From the NCBI RefSeq assembly GCF_014202635.1, contig NZ_JACHHD010000014.1, positions 1-61,189 on the forward strand: DNA of 61,189 bases, in the 5' to 3' direction. Below the pieces are notes generated by a model. The model made no database searches and was not told the DNA's origin. It worked only from the letters and a program-made list of their open reading frames with translations. A program made the position numbers and the translations under genes. This DNA is from Faecalicoccus acidiformans (lineage in GTDB: Bacteria; Bacillota_I; Bacilli_A; Erysipelotrichales; Erysipelotrichaceae). How positions within the stretch are numbered: position 1 is the stretch's first letter; every line of letters starts with the position of its first letter. This document shows positions 6,579 to 22,130 of the stretch, piece after piece.

Positions 6579-8090
6579 ATGGCGAAGTTTCTTAAAGAAC
6601 CATCTCGAACTTTTAGTGAGTATTTATTGATTCCGGGTTATACATCCGAAGATTGTATCCCGGACAATGTCGATCTGTCGACGCCGTTAGTCAAATATAA
6701 AAAAGGAGAGCAACCTTCTCTGCATTTGAACATCCCTATGGTTTCTGCCGTCATGCAGGCGGTCAGCGGTGAAGAGATGGCTTGCGCTTTGGCCCGTGAA
6801 GGAGGCGTGAGCTTCATCTATGGATCACAGTCCATTGAATCACAGGCCGCCATGGTCCGCAAAGTCAAGGCGACCAAATCCGGATTTACAGGCAGCGATT
6901 CCAATGTCAGTCCAGATGCTACATTGGCTGATGTTTTGGCTTTGAAAGAGAAAACAGGACATTCTACGATGGCTGTGACTGAAAATGGAGAAGCAGATGG
7001 AAAACTGGTGGGAATCGTAACAAGCCGCGACTATCGTGTGAGCCGTATGGATCTTTCTACACCGGTAAAAGAATTTATGACGCCATTTGAAAAATTGATC
7101 GTAGGCAAAGAAGATATTTCATTGAGTGAAGCCAACGACCTGATTTGGGATCATAAACTCAACCAGCTGCCCATCGTCGATGAGAATCAAAGACTGAAAG
7201 CGTTTGTGTTCCGTAAGGACTATGCCAGCCATAAAGATAATCCGAAAGAATTGTTAGATGAACAAAAACGTTATATCGTAGGAGCCGGGATCAATACTCG
7301 TGACTATGAACAGCGTGTTCCTGCCTTAGTCGAAGCCGGTGTCGACATTCTCTGCATCGATTCCAGCGAAGGCTATTCTTGCTGGCAAGCAAAGACGTTA
7401 CAATGGATCCGAGAAAAGTATGGCGATACAGTCAAAGTGGGAGCGGGGAATGTTGTTGATGAAGATGGATTCCGCTTCTTGGCAGAAGCCGGGGCGGATT
7501 TTGTGAAGATCGGAATCGGTGGCGGTTCCATCTGTATTACTCGTGAACAAAAAGGAATTGGCCGCGGGCAAGCGACTGCAACCCTTGATGTAGCTCGTGC
7601 GCGCGATAAATATTTTGAGGAAACTGGAGTGTATATCCCTATTTGCAGTGACGGGGGGATCGTACATGATTACCACATCACATTGGCTTTGGCCTTCGGG
7701 GCGGATTTTGTGATGTTAGGGCGTTATTTTGCGCGCTTTAAAGAAGCACCAAACAACCTTGTATCCATTAATGGAAACTATATGAAAGAATATTGGGGCG
7801 AAGGAAGTGCCCGTGCTCGTAACTGGCAGCGTTATGATGTCGGTGGCGAAGGCAAGATGAGTTTTGTCGAAGGGGTGGATTCCTATGTGCCATATGCAGG
7901 AACACTGCATGAAAACGTAGGTTTGACTTTGTCGAAGATTTCGCATACCATGTGCAACTGCGGGTGCTTAAGCATTCCGGATCTGCAAAAAAATGCCAAA
8001 GTCACACTTGTCTCCAGCACCAGTATCGTAGAGGGCGGAGCTCACGATGTTGTAGTTCGAGACGAGAGTTTTGATGCCAAACCGCATTAG
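6579..8090 (+). CDS. guaB: IMP dehydrogenase with CBS domains
   Basis: Oxidises IMP to XMP with NAD+, the committed step to GTP. It is 503 residues with a CBS pair around 95-220 inside the barrel. The active-site loop is [12 protein letters not shown] instead of the common GxGPGSICTTR, and the mobile flap carries RARNWQRYD. Both match, from memory, the enzyme of the protozoan Tritrichomonas foetus, which is also 503 residues. AGGAGG precedes the ATG and a strong terminator follows, so the gene is monocistronic. Confidence 0.96.
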
Positions 8091-8094
8091 ATCT

Positions 8095-8119
8095 AAAAAA
8101 GGGCGAGAGCCCTTTTTTT
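8095..8119 (+). terminator. Intrinsic terminator after guaB
   Basis: Hairpin AAAGGGC GAGA GCCCTTT followed by T's. Confidence 0.85.
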
Positions 8120-8145
8120 GTATGGATGCACTTTCAGGGGGAGTT

Positions 8146-8160
8146 TGTTATAATGGGGGC
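8146..8160 (+). promoter_or_regulatory. Extended -10 promoter directly before the ATG
   Basis: TGTTATAAT (TATAAT at 8149-8154) is a consensus extended -10 element. Only 6 bases separate it from the ATG at 8161, so the message should start at the start codon. No good -35 box is seen, as is common for extended -10 promoters. Confidence 0.6.
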
Positions 8161-9309
8161 ATGAATGAGTCGAACAGTACCGATCTTTTATTGGACATCA
8201 GTATTCTTTATCGAAGTACCCAAAAATATTATGATAAAATGCTTCAATCGTTATCTTTGACTTATGCACAATTGCCGATCTTGATTCTGATCTATGAGCA
8301 TGAAGGGATATCGTTACAACAGATTGCTTATGAAGGCGGCTATGATAAAGGAACGATCACTAAACAAGTCCAGAAGCTGCAGGAAACGGGCTATATCCGT
8401 GTCCAGTCTTCGAAGCGGGATAAGCGTGCCAAAGAGCTTTATACAACACAGAAGGCGCGTTCGATCATGAATAAGATCTACGGCATACGGGCATCCTGGT
8501 GGCAACATATCAGTGCTTCGATCCCGGAAGAGGATATGCAGAAGTTTTCGACCTTTTATAAGACTATGGTGGTTTCTGCTCGGGAATTTGCACAAAAGGA
8601 TCAGGAGGATATCGTTTTTTTCGATCATCAGAAATTGAATGTCGAGATCGATCCTGGAAAAATGTCGACGATCGTCTGGACTGGAGGCTGCAATTTTCGC
8701 TGTCCTTTCTGTGATCGCAGCCGGTTTATTTTCTTGAAAGAAGATTCTCGTGTAATTACCGGGGCAAAGATCCTCCAATATTTAAAAAAACGACAAAACG
8801 TTTTAGATCAGTTGGTGATCACTGGCGGAGAGCCTTTGATGCATGCACAGCTGGATCCTTTTTTGCGGGAAGCTAAAAAGATGGGGTATCAAATCCGGAT
8901 AGAGACCAACGGATCGTATCCTCAACATCTGCAAGATCTGATCAAAGCAAAATTGGTCGATCAAGTGGTCATGTCTTTAAAAAACACACCAGAAAAATAT
9001 GGACAATCGATAGGGGTAGGTCAAACGGAGATCCAAAAGATCCAAAGATCGGTTGATATTTTATTGCACTGTGATTTGGATGTGCGCTTTACGATCCTTC
9101 CCATTAAAGAGTTTCATTCGCAAAAGGATCTGATCGAAATGATTTCTTGGCTAAAAGATGCTGCTTCTATCGAGCTGCGGACATACCATGAATCTATGGA
9201 ATCGATTCAAAAAGATTTGCATGGGTATACTTATCAAGAGTTACAAAGTCTATTACCGAAACTTCAAGAAATTACACCTAATATCAAACTAAAGGGGGGA
9301 TCTTTGTGA
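8161..9309 (+). CDS. MarR-type HTH domain fused to NrdG-like radical SAM activase
   Basis: A 382-residue two-domain protein. Residues 1-150 read as a MarR-family winged helix: a helical dimer arm, the recognition region YDKGTITKQVQKL and a wing SSKRDKRAKELY. Residues 160-382 are a radical SAM domain with the cluster motif CNFRCPFC (Cys177, 181, 184) and the SAM-binding GGEP, as in activators of anaerobic ribonucleotide reductase. It overlaps the downstream glycyl radical gene by 4 bases, so its activase half most likely serves that protein. The fusion is unusual: normal NrdG has no DNA-binding domain. The start at 8161 follows an extended -10 box with no ribosome site; the frame is also open upstream, but those residues would lie in the guaB terminator. 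Confidence 0.85.
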   Translation: MNESNSTDLLLDISILYRSTQKYYDKMLQSLSLTYAQLPILILIYEHEGISLQQIAYEGGYDKGTITKQVQKLQETGYIRVQSSKRDKRAKELYTTQKARSIMNKIYGIRASWWQHISASIPEEDMQKFSTFYKTMVVSAREFAQKDQEDIVFFDHQKLNVEIDPGKMSTIVWTGGCNFRCPFCDRSRFIFLKEDSRVITGAKILQYLKKRQNVLDQLVITGGEPLMHAQLDPFLREAKKMGYQIRIETNGSYPQHLQDLIKAKLVDQVVMSLKNTPEKYGQSIGVGQTEIQKIQRSVDILLHCDLDVRFTILPIKEFHSQKDLIEMISWLKDAASIELRTYHESMESIQKDLHGYTYQELQSLLPKLQEITPNIKLKGGSL

Positions 9310-11324
9310 AAGTTGAAAAACGAGATGGTACGATCGTTGATTTTGATATGACCAAGATCATTCATGCGATCCAAAAAGCGTTTGATTCTTGTAAGATCAC
9401 ATCGGATCCTCAGATCTTTGAATTACTGGTCTTGCGGGTAAGTGCAGATTTCCAGCCGAAGATCCAAAATGGGATCGTCTCGGTGGAGGATATTCAGGAT
9501 AGTGTTGAACGGATTCTTTCTCAATCCGGCTACATACAAGTTGCCAAATCTTATATCTTGTATCGTAAACAGCGGGAAAATGTACGGCGTATTGAAAATA
9601 CTACACTAGATTATAAAAACATCGTCGATAGTTATTTGAATGATACTGAACGTACGCACCAAAGTGATCAACCTTCCTTGTATTCCGTCGGAGGACTGAT
9701 CTTATCGAATTCAGGAGCCATCACGCGAAATTACTGGATGAGTGAAGTCTATGATGAACCCATTGAAAAAGCGCACGACAGCGGAATGATCCATATTCAC
9801 GATCTTGATATGTTGACAGGAGACAGTGCCAGCTGGAGCTTGTTGTCGCTGATCCAAAAAGGAATCAAGACTCAGCCGGGACAGATTGTTTCTCGTCCGG
9901 CCAAACACTTGATGACCTTGTGCAACCAAATGGTCAATGTATTAGGAATCTTGCAGAATGAATGGGCGGGGGCTCAAAGCTTTTCAGGATTTGATACGTA
10001 TTTGGCACCTTACATCCGCAAGGATTGCTTGGATCGTCTGGAAGTAAAAAAGGCTTTGGAAGCCTTTATTTATGGAGTTAATATTCCTTCGCGATGGGGA
10101 TCGCAAACTCCCTTTGGCAATGTTTTGTTTGATATGAAAGTTCCTGCGGATTTGGTCAGTAAAAAGGCTTGGATCGGCAACCAGCAGTTGGACTTTACTT
10201 ATGGAGATTGTCAGGAAGAGATGAAATTACTGCAAGATGTCTTCTTTGAAATCTTGTGTGAAGGAGATGAAGCGGGAAATGGATTTCCATTTCCGATTCC
10301 GACTGTGATGATTCAGGATGACTTTGATTTTGAAAATGAAAGGTACCAAAACATTTTTCGCTGTGCCGGGAAATATGGTTCCGTTTATTTTGTTCATCAA
10401 GATTTGGAAAACGATCATCGAAAGGTCGATGAACACCTATGGAATCAAAAGCCGGGATTTTATACTTATACGGAAAATTCAGGGAGCATTGGAACCGTCA
10501 CCATCAATTTGGTGCGCTTGGCCTATCTCGCAAAAGACGAAGCAGATTTTTTCAGACAGCTGCAAGAAATCCTGGAGCTTTCTTGCCGGTCTTTACAAAT
10601 AAAAAGACAAGTCTTGAATAAGCTTTTCAAAAGTGGATTGTATCCTTGTAGCGCCCAGTTCATCTCTAATTTAGATTCGCATTTTTCAACGATTGGAATC
10701 GTCGGCATGAACGAGGTGGGACTCAATGCTGCCTGGCTGGGCAAAGATATGTCTGATCCGGATACACAGGCTTTTGCGGTCCGAGTTCTGGATTTTATTC
10801 GTCAACATTTGATTCTTCAACAAGAAAAGACACATTGTCTTTATAATTTAGAGGCGACGCCGGCTGAGAGTGTTTCGGTCCGCTTTGCGGCTAAAGACCA
10901 TGAATTGTATCCCGATATGCCGACCAGTTCCATCGAACGTTATACGAATTCCACCCAGCTCCCATTAGAAAATGAAGAAGATTTGTTCACATCTTTGGAG
11001 ATCCAACAAAAAATTCAAAAATTTTACAATGGAGGCACTTATTTTTCGATTGTTTTAATGCAGGAAATTGAGGATTGGAAGGCGGTTCGCTCTTTGGTTC
11101 AAACGATTATTCGATCCTTTTCATTATATGATTTTGTTTTTTCTCCTGTTTATTCGGTCTGTCCGGAACATGGCTATCAGAAAGGGCAGGTACTTCGTTG
11201 TCCTCAATGCCAGAAAGAATGTACCATCTGGACCCGTTTGGCAGGATATTATCATCCGTTTCCGGCATCAAAGATCCAAAATCATGCGGAGATTTTTAAA
11301 CAGAATCCTTTTGATATCGATTAG
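9306..11324 (+). CDS. NrdD-like glycyl radical protein lacking the usual catalytic cysteines
   Basis: A 672-residue homologue of class III ribonucleoside-triphosphate reductase: ATP-cone at residues 1-90, NrdD core with HIHDLD, LQNEWAGAQSF, PSRWGSQTPF and HFSTIGIVGMNE, a C-terminal zinc site (CPEHG and CPQC), and the glycyl-radical motif RLAGYY (Gly647). Two expected features differ. The conserved YCAGWSL reads DSASWSL, so Ser174 replaces Cys, and the stretch before GSIGTVTI (371-391) lacks the MCCRL-type cysteine segment of the Thermotoga-like branch. It may not reduce ribonucleotides in the normal way. The GTG start overlaps the activase gene and follows AAAGGGGGGA. Confidence 0.85.
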   Translation: MKVEKRDGTIVDFDMTKIIHAIQKAFDSCKITSDPQIFELLVLRVSADFQPKIQNGIVSVEDIQDSVERILSQSGYIQVAKSYILYRKQRENVRRIENTTLDYKNIVDSYLNDTERTHQSDQPSLYSVGGLILSNSGAITRNYWMSEVYDEPIEKAHDSGMIHIHDLDMLTGDSASWSLLSLIQKGIKTQPGQIVSRPAKHLMTLCNQMVNVLGILQNEWAGAQSFSGFDTYLAPYIRKDCLDRLEVKKALEAFIYGVNIPSRWGSQTPFGNVLFDMKVPADLVSKKAWIGNQQLDFTYGDCQEEMKLLQDVFFEILCEGDEAGNGFPFPIPTVMIQDDFDFENERYQNIFRCAGKYGSVYFVHQDLENDHRKVDEHLWNQKPGFYTYTENSGSIGTVTINLVRLAYLAKDEADFFRQLQEILELSCRSLQIKRQVLNKLFKSGLYPCSAQFISNLDSHFSTIGIVGMNEVGLNAAWLGKDMSDPDTQAFAVRVLDFIRQHLILQQEKTHCLYNLEATPAESVSVRFAAKDHELYPDMPTSSIERYTNSTQLPLENEEDLFTSLEIQQKIQKFYNGGTYFSIVLMQEIEDWKAVRSLVQTIIRSFSLYDFVFSPVYSVCPEHGYQKGQVLRCPQCQKECTIWTRLAGYYHPFPASKIQNHAEIFKQNPFDID

Positions 11325-11361: not shown

Positions 11362-11399
11362 TTGATGTATCTTCTATCCTATGTTAGGATAGGAATACT
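11362..11399 (+). promoter_or_regulatory. Promoter with palindromic operator before ABC exporter genes
   Basis: TTGATG (11362-11367), a 17-base spacer and TAGGAT (11385-11390) form a plausible promoter. A perfect inverted repeat TATCCTA-TGT-TAGGATA (11375-11391) covers the -10 box, where a bound repressor would block RNA polymerase. The size and symmetry suit a small winged-helix repressor such as MarR, but the regulator is not identified. Confidence 0.5.
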
Positions 11400-11420
11400 T
11401 GTGTGAACCAAGGAGGTTTT

Positions 11421-13151
11421 ATGCGACTGATTTTACACTATATGAAAGCGTATAAGATACTTGTATTTTTAAATATCTTATCCGTTTTTGGCTTTGCCTT
11501 GGCAGAGCTTGGGATTCCTACACTGATTTCGAACATGATCGATGAAGGGGTGCTTCGCCAAGACAGTGCGTACCTGATCCACACCGGACTGATCATTGCC
11601 TTGATTTCGGTGATTGGCGTCTTAGGAACGATTTTATTAGGGTATTGTTGCGCTAGAATCTCTACATCTGTGACACGTGACATCCGCAATGATGTCTTTC
11701 GAAAGATTCAGAGTTTCTCGCACGCCCAAATGAATGAGTTTGGAGTTTCTAGTCTGATTACCCGAACTAATAACGATGCTTTCCAAATCATGACGTTTTT
11801 GAATGTGATCTTGCGTACGGCTTTATTGACGCCGGTGATGATCTTTGTCAGTTTTACTTTGACCATTCGTTCAAACTTCAATTTGTCTTTGATCATTGCC
11901 TCGACAGTACCTGTCATTGTTTTGGGTGTGTTTCTAGTCGGAAAGTTTTCTTCGCCAATCAGTGAAAGGCAGCAAGCATCTTTAGATCGTTTGAATCGTA
12001 TCTTCCGCGAAAACTTGACCGGTATCCGTGTCATTCGTTCGTTTAATAATGATGCATATGAAAGTGAGCGCTTTGATAAAGAGAACCGCTACTTTATGAA
12101 GCAGTCCCGGTCGTTGTTTAAGCTGATGTCCAGTACAGAACCCATCTTCTTTTTTGTGATGAATTTGGCAGCTTTGGCAATCTATTATGTGGCAGCAGGT
12201 ATGATCAATGCCAATACTTTACAGGTGGGTATGTTGATCGCATTTATGGAATATTTGTTCCATGCGATGTTGTCCGTGATGTTGTTTTGTACCGTGTTTA
12301 TGATGTATCCTCGAGCAGCGGTTTCTGCGCGAAGGATTCAAGCAGTATTTGATTCTTCTTCGATGATTCTGGATCCTGAAAATCCGCAAGACTTAACTGA
12401 TATTGAATCTTTGGTTTTTGATGATGTGACTTTTGTCTATCCGGATGGAGAAGAACCGGTATTGGAACATATTTCGTTTGAAGTGAAAAAAGGCGAGACC
12501 ATTGCGTTTATTGGTTCTACCGGTTCAGGGAAGAGTACCTTGATTGGTCTGGTTCCTCGTTTTTATGATGTGTCGGATGGGTCGATTCGAATCAATGGAA
12601 AAGATATACGAGAATATTCTTTACAGGATCTGCGATCCAAGATCGGTTATGTTTCGCAAAAGGCATTCTTGTTCAGGGGATCGATTGCGGATAATATTCG
12701 TTTCGGAAAAAAAGATGCCAGTCAAGAAGAGATAGAACATGCCTCTAAAGTGGCTCAGGCTTATGATTTTATTCAGGAAAAGCCGGATCAGTTTGAAGAA
12801 AGAATCGTAGAAGGGGCAACCAATGTATCTGGGGGCCAAAAACAGCGCTTATCGATTACAAGGGCATTGGTTCGCCATCCCCAGATCTATATTTATGATG
12901 ACTCGTTTTCGGCTTTGGATTTTGCGACAGATGCTCGTTTGCGGAAGGCTTTAAAGCCAGAAGTGAAGGATGCGGTCATGATGATCGTAGCACAGCGAGT
13001 TTCGACGATTATGGATGCGGACCATATTTTAGTTTTAAACGAGGGCAAAGTGGCCGGATATGGTACGCATAAGGAGTTATTAGAGAATTGTTCGATCTAT
13101 CGGGAGATCGCATTATCGCAGTTGAGCGAAAAGGAGCTTGCCTATGCTTAA
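11421..13151 (+). CDS. ABC exporter half-transporter, degenerate-site subunit
   Basis: About 576 residues: six membrane helices in the first 320, then an ATPase domain with Walker A GSTGSGKST, signature VSGGQKQR and Walker B IYIYDDSFSALD. In Walker B the catalytic Glu is Asp, as in the non-canonical partner of heterodimeric exporters such as TM287/288, BmrCD and LmrCD. It overlaps the next gene, which supplies the intact Glu. Such pairs export drugs, lipids or peptides; the substrate here is unknown. The ATG at 11421 is chosen because AAGGAGG precedes it. Confidence 0.92.
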   Translation: MRLILHYMKAYKILVFLNILSVFGFALAELGIPTLISNMIDEGVLRQDSAYLIHTGLIIALISVIGVLGTILLGYCCARISTSVTRDIRNDVFRKIQSFSHAQMNEFGVSSLITRTNNDAFQIMTFLNVILRTALLTPVMIFVSFTLTIRSNFNLSLIIASTVPVIVLGVFLVGKFSSPISERQQASLDRLNRIFRENLTGIRVIRSFNNDAYESERFDKENRYFMKQSRSLFKLMSSTEPIFFFVMNLAALAIYYVAAGMINANTLQVGMLIAFMEYLFHAMLSVMLFCTVFMMYPRAAVSARRIQAVFDSSSMILDPENPQDLTDIESLVFDDVTFVYPDGEEPVLEHISFEVKKGETIAFIGSTGSGKSTLIGLVPRFYDVSDGSIRINGKDIREYSLQDLRSKIGYVSQKAFLFRGSIADNIRFGKKDASQEEIEHASKVAQAYDFIQEKPDQFEERIVEGATNVSGGQKQRLSITRALVRHPQIYIYDDSFSALDFATDARLRKALKPEVKDAVMMIVAQRVSTIMDADHILVLNEGKVAGYGTHKELLENCSIYREIALSQLSEKELAYA

Positions 13152-14934
13152 TCGAAAAGCAAGCACGAAAAACTGTATCAAGGGGTTATTGTCTTTTATG
13201 CGCCCGTATCGCACAAAAGCCATCATTGCCCTCGTCATGATCGTGATCACACAAGGGGCTTTTGCCCTCAATCCGATGGTGGAAGGAATGATTACTTCTC
13301 AATTGACGGAGGATGCGATTGCGATCTTAGACCAGGTTCCTGGAGCACACGTTCATTTTGATGTGATTTTTCGCATCATGATGATCTTGATGGGGCTTTA
13401 TCTTTTAAAGACGGTTTCTCAATTGATCACGACATTCTTTTTGACCGATGCGATTCAGGGGACGATGCACGATTTAAGAAATGCTTTGCAGAAAAAGATC
13501 CAGCGATTGCCGGTCCGTTATTTTGATGACCATCCGTTTGGGGATCTTTTAAGTAAGGTGACCAATGATGTCGATGCCTTAAGCAATGCTCTTCAACAAG
13601 CGCTGACTCGCGTTTTTGGCGGTATATTGACGTTTATCTTTGTGATCACAATGATGTTGCGGATCAATATATGGATGAGTGTCATTGCCTTGTTGATCAT
13701 TCCATTCTCATTGATCATAACTAAGTTTGTTGTCGGTCATTCACAGCGTCTTTTTGAAAAACAACAGGCAACCTTGGGAGAACTGAATGGAACGATTACT
13801 GAAATGTATGGCGGATTCAACGAAATCATCCTTTATGGCAAGCAAGAAGATGCCATCAAACGATTCGAGGATGTCAATGAGAGAATGTGCAATGCCAGTT
13901 TTAAGGCCCAATTTGTTTCGAGCTTGATTGCACCGCTGATTTCTTTATGCACTTATCTGGCGATTGGCGGGGTAGCTGTATTAGGTTGTATTTTTGTGAT
14001 ACAGGGAGTCATCACGGTAGGAAACTTGCAGGCATTTATCCGGTATATCTGGCAGATCAATGAGCCGCTTTCTTCGATTTCGCAATTATCCGGTCAAGTG
14101 CAGTCTGCTTTTGCGGGCATGGGGCGAATCTTCGGTATGCTGGAAGAGGAAGAAGAGGTTTTGGAAAATCCGAATCCAATCGTACTGCATGATGTGAAAG
14201 GCATGGTAAAATTTGAACATGTTCAGTTTGGCTATGATGAAGAGCTTTTGATGCACGATGTCAATATTGATGTCAAACCGGGACAGATGGTGGCCATTGT
14301 GGGCCCGACAGGGGCAGGAAAGACCACATTGATGAATCTGTTATTACGCTTCTATGATGTCAAAGGCGGAGCCATCAAGATCGATGGTGTAGATATTCGG
14401 GATATGCCTCGAGAAAGCTTGCGCTCTTTGTTTTCTTTGGTGTTGCAGGATACTTGGCTGTTTAATGGTTCGGTCTATGACAACATCCGATACGGGCGAA
14501 GAGATGCCCGGAAAGATGAAGTGATCGAAGCCGCCAAGATGGCCAATGTTCATCATTTCATTCGCACATTGAGTCAGGGCTATGATACACAGCTGAACGA
14601 AGAAGCAAACAATATCTCACAAGGGGAGAAACAGTTATTAACCATTGCCCGGGCTATTTTAAAAGATCCGCAGATCCTGATTTTAGATGAAGCGACCAGT
14701 TCTGTGGATACGCGTTTAGAGAAGATGCTTCAGGAAGCGATGCAGCGTGTCATGGCCAATCGTACCAGCTTTGTGATTGCACACCGGTTATCGACGATCA
14801 AAAACGCTGACCTTATCCTTGTACTGCAGCATGGAAATATCATCGAGCAAGGAACGCATGAATCTTTATTGGCAAAAAAAGGATTCTATGAAAAGCTCTA
14901 TCATTCCCAATTTGCCAATCAGGAATCCGCATAA
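13144..14934 (+). CDS. ABC exporter half-transporter, catalytic subunit
   Basis: A 596-residue partner of the preceding gene: N-terminal membrane domain with six helices, then Walker A GPTGAGKTT, a diverged signature ISQGEKQL and a canonical Walker B ILILDEATSSVD. Together the subunits would give one working and one degenerate ATP site, the usual arrangement of heterodimeric exporters. The ATG at 13144 lies 7 bases after AAGGAG and overlaps the upstream gene by 8 bases, consistent with translational coupling. A strong terminator follows. Confidence 0.92.
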   Translation: MLNRKASTKNCIKGLLSFMRPYRTKAIIALVMIVITQGAFALNPMVEGMITSQLTEDAIAILDQVPGAHVHFDVIFRIMMILMGLYLLKTVSQLITTFFLTDAIQGTMHDLRNALQKKIQRLPVRYFDDHPFGDLLSKVTNDVDALSNALQQALTRVFGGILTFIFVITMMLRINIWMSVIALLIIPFSLIITKFVVGHSQRLFEKQQATLGELNGTITEMYGGFNEIILYGKQEDAIKRFEDVNERMCNASFKAQFVSSLIAPLISLCTYLAIGGVAVLGCIFVIQGVITVGNLQAFIRYIWQINEPLSSISQLSGQVQSAFAGMGRIFGMLEEEEEVLENPNPIVLHDVKGMVKFEHVQFGYDEELLMHDVNIDVKPGQMVAIVGPTGAGKTTLMNLLLRFYDVKGGAIKIDGVDIRDMPRESLRSLFSLVLQDTWLFNGSVYDNIRYGRRDARKDEVIEAAKMANVHHFIRTLSQGYDTQLNEEANNISQGEKQLLTIARAILKDPQILILDEATSSVDTRLEKMLQEAMQRVMANRTSFVIAHRLSTIKNADLILVLQHGNIIEQGTHESLLAKKGFYEKLYHSQFANQESA

Positions 14935-21674: not shown

Positions 21675-22130
21675 ATGGAGTTTACAGAAGCTAAAAAAAT
21701 CATGGATGAAAAACTGGGAGATTGGAAAATCATGGCACTGGCTAGTTGCGTAGACAACTATCCAATGGTGCGAAATGTTAGTTGTATTTTTTACAACGAT
21801 AAGATCTATTTTAAAACGGATAAAAATTTTAGAAAAACACAGCAGCTATTCAAAAATGCTCAAGTTGCAATGTGCTTTAATGGTGTACAGGTAGAAGGAA
21901 AAGCTATAAATAAAGGGTTAGTTGTTGATGAACCGGGAAAAGTTTTTGAAAAGAAATATAAAGAATTTTTGTGGCAGAGTTACAATGCCTATTCACATGA
22001 GGATACGGAAATTTTAATTGAAGTGACTCCAGAATTTGTCGAAATCTGGGATGAAGATGAAAATCGTAATGCATTTCAATTGTTTATAGATTTTAGGAAT
22101 CGCAGTGTCGAATATAAGCCTTATGATTAA
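21675..22130 (+). CDS. PNPOx-like FMN-binding split-barrel protein
   Basis: A 151-residue protein of the pyridoxamine-phosphate-oxidase-like split barrel, typical of small FMN-binding proteins. The pattern KIMALASCVDNYPMVRNVS, YFKTDKNFRKTQQL and AQVAMCF fits the family. The exact reaction is unknown. Co-transcription with RibU behind an FMN riboswitch supports flavin binding. AAGGAGGAA precedes the ATG. Confidence 0.85.
   Translation: MEFTEAKKIMDEKLGDWKIMALASCVDNYPMVRNVSCIFYNDKIYFKTDKNFRKTQQLFKNAQVAMCFNGVQVEGKAINKGLVVDEPGKVFEKKYKEFLWQSYNAYSHEDTEILIEVTPEFVEIWDEDENRNAFQLFIDFRNRSVEYKPYD

Follow-up and report, generated by a model that had tools for sequence, protein, structure and literature searches.

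A MarR-NrdG2 fusion protein encoded beside a dead reductase is a candidate regulator of class III RNR operons in Erysipelotrichales

To our knowledge, NrdR is regarded as the near-universal repressor of RNR genes in bacteria. Regulators can also be built from enzymes: in the enzyme-repressors BirA, NadR, and PutA, the DNA-binding domain shares a polypeptide with an enzyme from the very pathway under its control. Within the class III RNRs, the activase NrdG acts through contact with NrdD. NrdR itself represses RNR genes when its ATP-cone holds dATP and ATP (PMC9110341). In StNrdD, dATP causes dimerisation of the cone (PMC12662201).

The protein that we describe here joins a DNA-binding domain to an RNR activase. 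It is encoded in a stretch of 61,189 nucleotides from Faecalicoccus acidiformans (the window), at 8161..9309 on the + strand, in a single unbroken frame of 382 amino acids. The original prediction, made from the sequence alone, was that a MarR-like winged helix and an NrdG-like domain with the motif CNFRCPFC share this frame, and profile searches put both domains above their cut-offs (PF01047 and TIGR02495). The MarR winged-helix domain occupies 8182..8475 (+ strand; residues 8-105). Its core at residues 33-90 matches PF01047 with 49-51 bits against a cut-off of 24.6 (Pfam profile search). PF12802 matches the MarR part as well (48 bits; the cut-off is 27), and the nearest solved structures are plain MarR regulators (3s2w, E = 2.8e-12). 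D87 and R89, which form the wing motif (D87-R89), and the region of the recognition helix are at least 95% conserved across 60 homologs. The NrdG2-type radical SAM activase domain (8653..9165, + strand; residues 165-335) scores 146.4 bits against TIGR02495, which is above the equivalog cut-off of 131.15 (NCBI), and residues 171-329 match Radical_SAM (PF04055, 74.5 bits). The [4Fe-4S] ligands C177, C181, and C184 lie in CNFRCPFC (8689..8712, + strand; residues 177-184); this Cx3Cx2C cluster motif and GGEP (residues 222-225) are both intact. By family score and by motifs, the window fusion is an NrdG2, and it may act as an activase. A structure prediction for the whole fusion had a low mean pLDDT of 58; all that can be read from it is that helices and strands follow one another as in MarR.

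Like MarR repressors (3s2w and 3bpx), the fusion has a winged helix whose D-x-R wing is conserved, and a palindrome as its candidate site, but MarR repressors have no enzyme domain and sense small molecules or thiols inside the MarR dimer. With the described NrdG2/NrdD systems (TIGR02495; PcNrdD, PMC11226230; StNrdD, PMC12662201), the locus shares the radical-SAM motif, an nrdD operon, the ATP-cone, the Zn cysteines, and the glycyl loop. In contrast to those systems, the window adds an N-terminal MarR domain, and the partner NrdD has neither of the two active-site cysteines and no redoxin tail. The MarR regulator of the radical SAM mobile pair system (TIGR04472) is also tied to radical-SAM proteins, but these are separate genes, and the window protein reaches 31-34 bits against that family's cut-off of 240. 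Compared with BirA, NadR, and PutA, the enzyme domain of the fusion is a radical-SAM activase, and its partner would be a selected pseudoenzyme with a nucleotide-sensing cone; enzyme-repressor fusions are already known, but a dead-RNR sensor would go beyond them. The original prediction knew of no described activase with this build, and neither do we: text searches of the open-access literature found no MarR-NrdG fusion, no dead RNR as a regulator, and no description of RNR regulation in this group.

Full-length fusions are present in 61 of the 145 genomes of the family, at identities from 89% to about 30% (genome search, with frames checked). The closest homolog is 89% identical, and the named relatives are Faecalicoccus and Holdemanella. 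Outside the family, a second family of the order Erysipelotrichales has the fusion, as does a single genus belonging to a third; elsewhere in the class, the NrdG2 genes that were sampled stand alone without MarR. The fusion is therefore old and restricted to a limited group. (The survey covered the family's 145 genomes and samples of the order and the class, which does not include Clostridia, a separate phylum in the taxonomy used. Contig ends shorten some of the genes, such as L253 and L051.) A search of plasmids gave no homolog of the fusion, and a search of phages matched the activase part alone, without MarR.

The adjacent gene, pseudo-NrdD2 (9306..11324, + strand; 672 amino acids), begins with a GTG that overlaps the stop codon of the fusion, and it encodes a class III RNR homolog (446 bits for PF13597 and 77.8 bits for the ATP-cone). 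The original prediction called it the glycyl radical protein. It does keep the glycyl-radical loop (TRLAGYYH with Gly647; 11229..11252, + strand), but both catalytic cysteines have been lost, and it is not a working reductase. The roles of these cysteines are known from the NrdD of Prevotella copri, in which Cys416 is the radical initiator and Cys171 is the second active-site cysteine (PMC11226230). All 36 catalytic NrdD2 proteins of the family, whether their activase is fused or unfused, have an invariant RSMCCRLRLD loop as well as the second cysteine. In the window, the site of the thiyl-radical cysteine loop (10395..10448, + strand) reads HQDLENDHRKVDEHLWNQ, and the second cysteine is replaced by Ser174. 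Among 16 dead NrdD2 proteins, one of the two cysteines is present in 2 and the other in 0. Most catalytic NrdD2 of the family also have a fused C-terminal glutaredoxin/thioredoxin-like domain (residues 714-784 of L054), which is probably a built-in reductant; the glutaredoxin-like domain is absent from the window's NrdD2 and from the dead forms. The ATP-cone is retained (9306..9578, + strand; Pfam match at 1-91). Judged by its residues, then, the window's NrdD2 is a dead RNR that has kept its cone.

Catalytic residues have been lost in this way in 23 fusion-bearing genomes. On a tree of the fusion proteins, the dead state requires about four changes in all; even if only well-supported branches count, at least two are needed. 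The dead state was therefore probably reached more than once. Dead does not mean decaying: between the window and a sister species, pseudo-NrdD2 has dN of 0.045, dS of 1.35, and dN/dS of 0.033, and it is under purifying selection. Furthermore, the cone is more conserved than the body in the dead forms (96 vs. 91%, 80 vs. 67%, and 91 vs. 36% identity, the last for L239/L240), whereas in catalytic forms it is not better conserved (92 vs. 95% and 65 vs. 76%).

Class I/II RNR (PF02867) was not found in the window genome. The canonical class III operon on another contig, nrdD1-nrdG1 (nrdD1 encodes 724 amino acids and belongs to PRK09263; nrdG1 is next and belongs to TIGR02491), therefore looks like its only working RNR. 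NrdR (TIGR00244; Zn-ribbon plus ATP-cone) was not found above the cut-off in any of the family's 145 genomes, including that of the window, while 9 of 14 control genomes were positive.

A palindrome recurs 5' of the fusion genes: TAGTTGAA-NN-TTCAACTA, with the conserved operator form TAGTTGAANNTTCAACTA, or, as it reads upstream of the fusion genes, TAGTTG-A-NNNN-T-CAACTA. The same operator precedes nrdD1-nrdG1 in these genomes, mostly 16-70 bp 5' of the start. We built a weight matrix from 47 fusion-upstream sites only, then scored the sequence before the unlinked nrdD1, and called an operator above 13 bits, the 99.9% level of shuffles. Among the family's genomes with an nrdD1-like gene, the operator precedes nrdD1 in 32 of 40 that have the fusion vs. 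2 of 37 that do not (Fisher p = 9e-12, which ignores kinship and is optimistic because the genomes share ancestry). The two positives without the fusion carry another palindrome, of type TTGTTGCAAATGCAACAA. If the comparison is limited to close relatives, whose nrdD1 shares 74% identity or more with that of the window genome, then the operator is found in 28/32 genomes with the fusion and 0/8 without it. The second family, whose sequences lie outside the matrix, gives 6/7 and 0/4. Four genomes (G014, G035, G043, and G052) have the fusion and a close nrdD1 yet no operator before nrdD1. This co-occurrence of palindrome and fusion gene is in line with the DNA-binding role that was originally proposed, and we consider it very probable that the fusion is a regulator of class III RNR operons.

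In the window genome, TAGTTGAACCTTCAACTA lies 28 bp before nrdD1 (contig 2, 67876-67893). It is the sole mismatch-free operator in 1.77 Mb, and among the matches listed there is no copy with one mismatch. A second match to the core pattern (C7:87374) does not have the T/A on its flanks, and it either falls within a frame or lies 242 nt from the next start downstream; a site at 21743 of the window sits within a coding frame; we rejected both. Scattered matches in other genomes have no RNR gene behind them and were set aside as chance. One genome, G112 (L116 and L117), has the nrdD1 operon with its operator twice, 113 kb apart and apparently identical; this genome is rated as 10% contaminated. 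In family members that lack the fusion (L184-L201, for example L192, L198, and L185), TTGTTGCAAATGCAACAA is found about 50-110 bp 5' of nrdD1, and a second RNR regulator is likely there. L071 has GTTGCAATTGCGAC upstream of a stand-alone nrdG2.

Two sites near the fusion had been put forward for DNA-binding tests. One of them, the palindrome TATCCTATGTTAGGATA (11375-11391), represents another motif: it is 5' of a pair of ABC transporter genes (11403-14934), belongs with them, and is unrelated to the fusion operator. The other region, 8118-8160, does include the operator position (8123..8140, no strand), but the copy there, TGGATGCACTTTCAGGGG, is decayed, and the intact one is before nrdD1-nrdG1. 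A congener has a 17.8-bit site, TGGTTGCACTTTCAACTG, at the same position. Further upstream lies an IMP dehydrogenase gene (6579-8090); a hairpin and a T-run after it resemble its terminator. The extended -10 element TGTTATAAT (8146..8154, + strand) starts 12 nt before the ATG, with a predicted leaderless or near-leaderless transcript. The same spacing is seen across the relatives with a dead NrdD2 (window 8146-8161; L010, L014-L016, L021, L024, and L030) and predicts that their fusion transcripts are leaderless as well. Most fusion genes in the catalytic group instead have a Shine-Dalgarno-like sequence.

At most fusion promoters, the palindrome lies on the -35 region (the -10 starts 24-28 bp after the start of the palindrome) or on the start site (the -10 starts 10-18 bp ahead of the start of the palindrome). 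At several nrdD1 promoters, it is just 3' of the transcription start. (Automated picking of the -10 was noisy at nrdD1 promoters; the window genome's was read directly.) These are positions for a repressor, and by analogy with NrdR, repression is considerably more likely than activation.

Which operon carries the operator depends on the state of NrdD2. All 28 genomes with a catalytic NrdD2 have the operator before the fusion's own operon. With a dead NrdD2, it is there in just 9 of 23, and it precedes nrdD1 in all 22 in which nrdD1 was located. (Ten other fusion genomes are unclassed.) In other words, by its placement, the operator tracks the working enzyme. In G051 (L068), the fusion is paired with a dead NrdD2, and a further operon encodes a stand-alone NrdG2 and a catalytic NrdD2; this further operon carries the operator too (20.3 bits).

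The genomes thus record the fusion, the distribution of the operator, the loss of catalytic residues, purifying selection, a conserved cone, and the absence of NrdR. We propose that MarR-NrdG2 represses class III RNR operons as a substitute for NrdR, with pseudo-NrdD2 as its partner, and we put the probability of this whole explanation at roughly 60%. The MarR domain would bind TAGTTGAANNTTCAACTA, overlapping the promoter or immediately after it, and the fusion would stand in for NrdR in Erysipelotrichales. Ancestrally, the fusion would have controlled its own operon, which encoded a true activase and a true NrdD2. In the window's lineage, NrdD2 would have lost catalysis and persisted as a partner whose ATP-cone still works, and the pair would control the genome's sole working RNR, nrdD1-nrdG1. 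Pseudo-NrdD2 would dock on the NrdG2 domain, as NrdD does on NrdG; its cone would read dATP/ATP and report to the MarR dimer; and high dATP would favor a complex in which the MarR dimer stays on the operator, which would turn dNTP synthesis off, much as dATP does with NrdR. We infer DNA binding and repression here, and complex formation, nucleotide sensing, and the sign of regulation are modelled on NrdR and on NrdD-NrdG. That the cone of pseudo-NrdD2 is a nucleotide sensor seems to us a little better than an even bet.

Like NrdR (PMC9110341), this system would be specific to RNR, with palindromic sites at RNR promoters and an ATP-cone, and it would control several RNR operons including its own, as NrdR often does. 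Unlike NrdR, which combines a Zn-ribbon with an ATP-cone, its DNA-binding fold is MarR, its cone is on a separate dead-RNR partner, its operator is different, and the regulator contains an activase domain.

Alternatively, the fusion might repress RNR genes but receive its signal through the radical-SAM domain (oxygen or iron at the [4Fe-4S] cluster, SAM, or titration by unactivated NrdD) rather than from the cone. The original prediction named as one option a DNA-binding domain that responds to the state of an oxygen-labile iron-sulfur enzyme, and as the other an activase sent to DNA. Neither the cluster cysteines nor GGEP are broken in the window, and the same holds for most homologs; the window's MarR domain has no cysteines of its own, and many dead NrdD2 retain the glycyl-radical loop. 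Since the window has kept both the activase motif and the glycyl loop, radical chemistry may still play a role there, and sensing by the cluster is possible in this genome. However, the radical-SAM motif is broken in eight fusions, all of which pair with a dead NrdD2 and keep their MarR parts. L066/L067 have lost the cluster ligands and L030 has lost two of the three, yet their MarR domain remains and their nrdD1 operators are perfect or strong, so sensing by the Fe-S cluster is not general. A signal through the radical-SAM domain would also leave unexplained why dead NrdD2 is under selection and preserves its cone. We consider this alternative unlikely.

It is still less probable that pseudo-NrdD2 acts on other proteins (it might, for instance, pair with NrdD1 as an inhibitor or allosteric subunit) and that MarR-NrdG2 regulates transcription independently of it. 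Dead paralogs do frequently turn into subunits of the live enzyme, and pseudo-NrdD2 is found together with nrdD1 in 22 of 23 genomes, but NrdD1 and NrdD2 are distant from each other, and pseudo-NrdD2 remains adjacent to the fusion in the same operon. Moreover, some dead NrdD2 are much reduced: L063 has 646 amino acids and no glycyl loop, L064/L065 have about 510, L066/L067 have 501, and the smallest, L239/L240, have 373-381. These smallest forms have no recognisable NRDD body with which to dimerise with NrdD1, and L239 matches the ATP-cone alone in Pfam.

For the 28 checked genomes that have a catalytic NrdD2 and the operator at the fusion's own operon, the locus is adequately described as an ordinary second operon for anaerobic RNR whose activase is autoregulated. 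For the window, this reading is very improbable because of the loss of both catalytic cysteines and of the redoxin tail, and the window's own operator is decayed while a strong one is at nrdD1. Finally, an assembly or sequencing error that joined two genes, which the original prediction had named as a risk, or a functionless chance fusion, has no point in its favor and can be dismissed, given full-length homologs in 61 of 145 genomes and dN/dS well below 1.

If our proposal is correct, then the principle of NrdR was invented a second time, independently, and from RNR itself. We lean slightly towards the view that an RNR and its activase were converted more than once into a dedicated regulator of another RNR, with the cone as sensor, the activase as docking piece, and MarR as the head. 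In practical terms, the gene beside the fusion is annotated as an anaerobic RNR, and it should not be counted as an RNR in metabolic models of these genomes. More broadly, this order of gut anaerobes includes a family that, as surveyed, lacks NrdR and has a clear candidate for its replacement, drawn from the RNR machinery. The family also offers a natural series, from an active, autoregulated enzyme to a dead enzyme to a minimal partner with just the cone, which makes it possible to test directly how a pair of enzymes turns into a gene switch.
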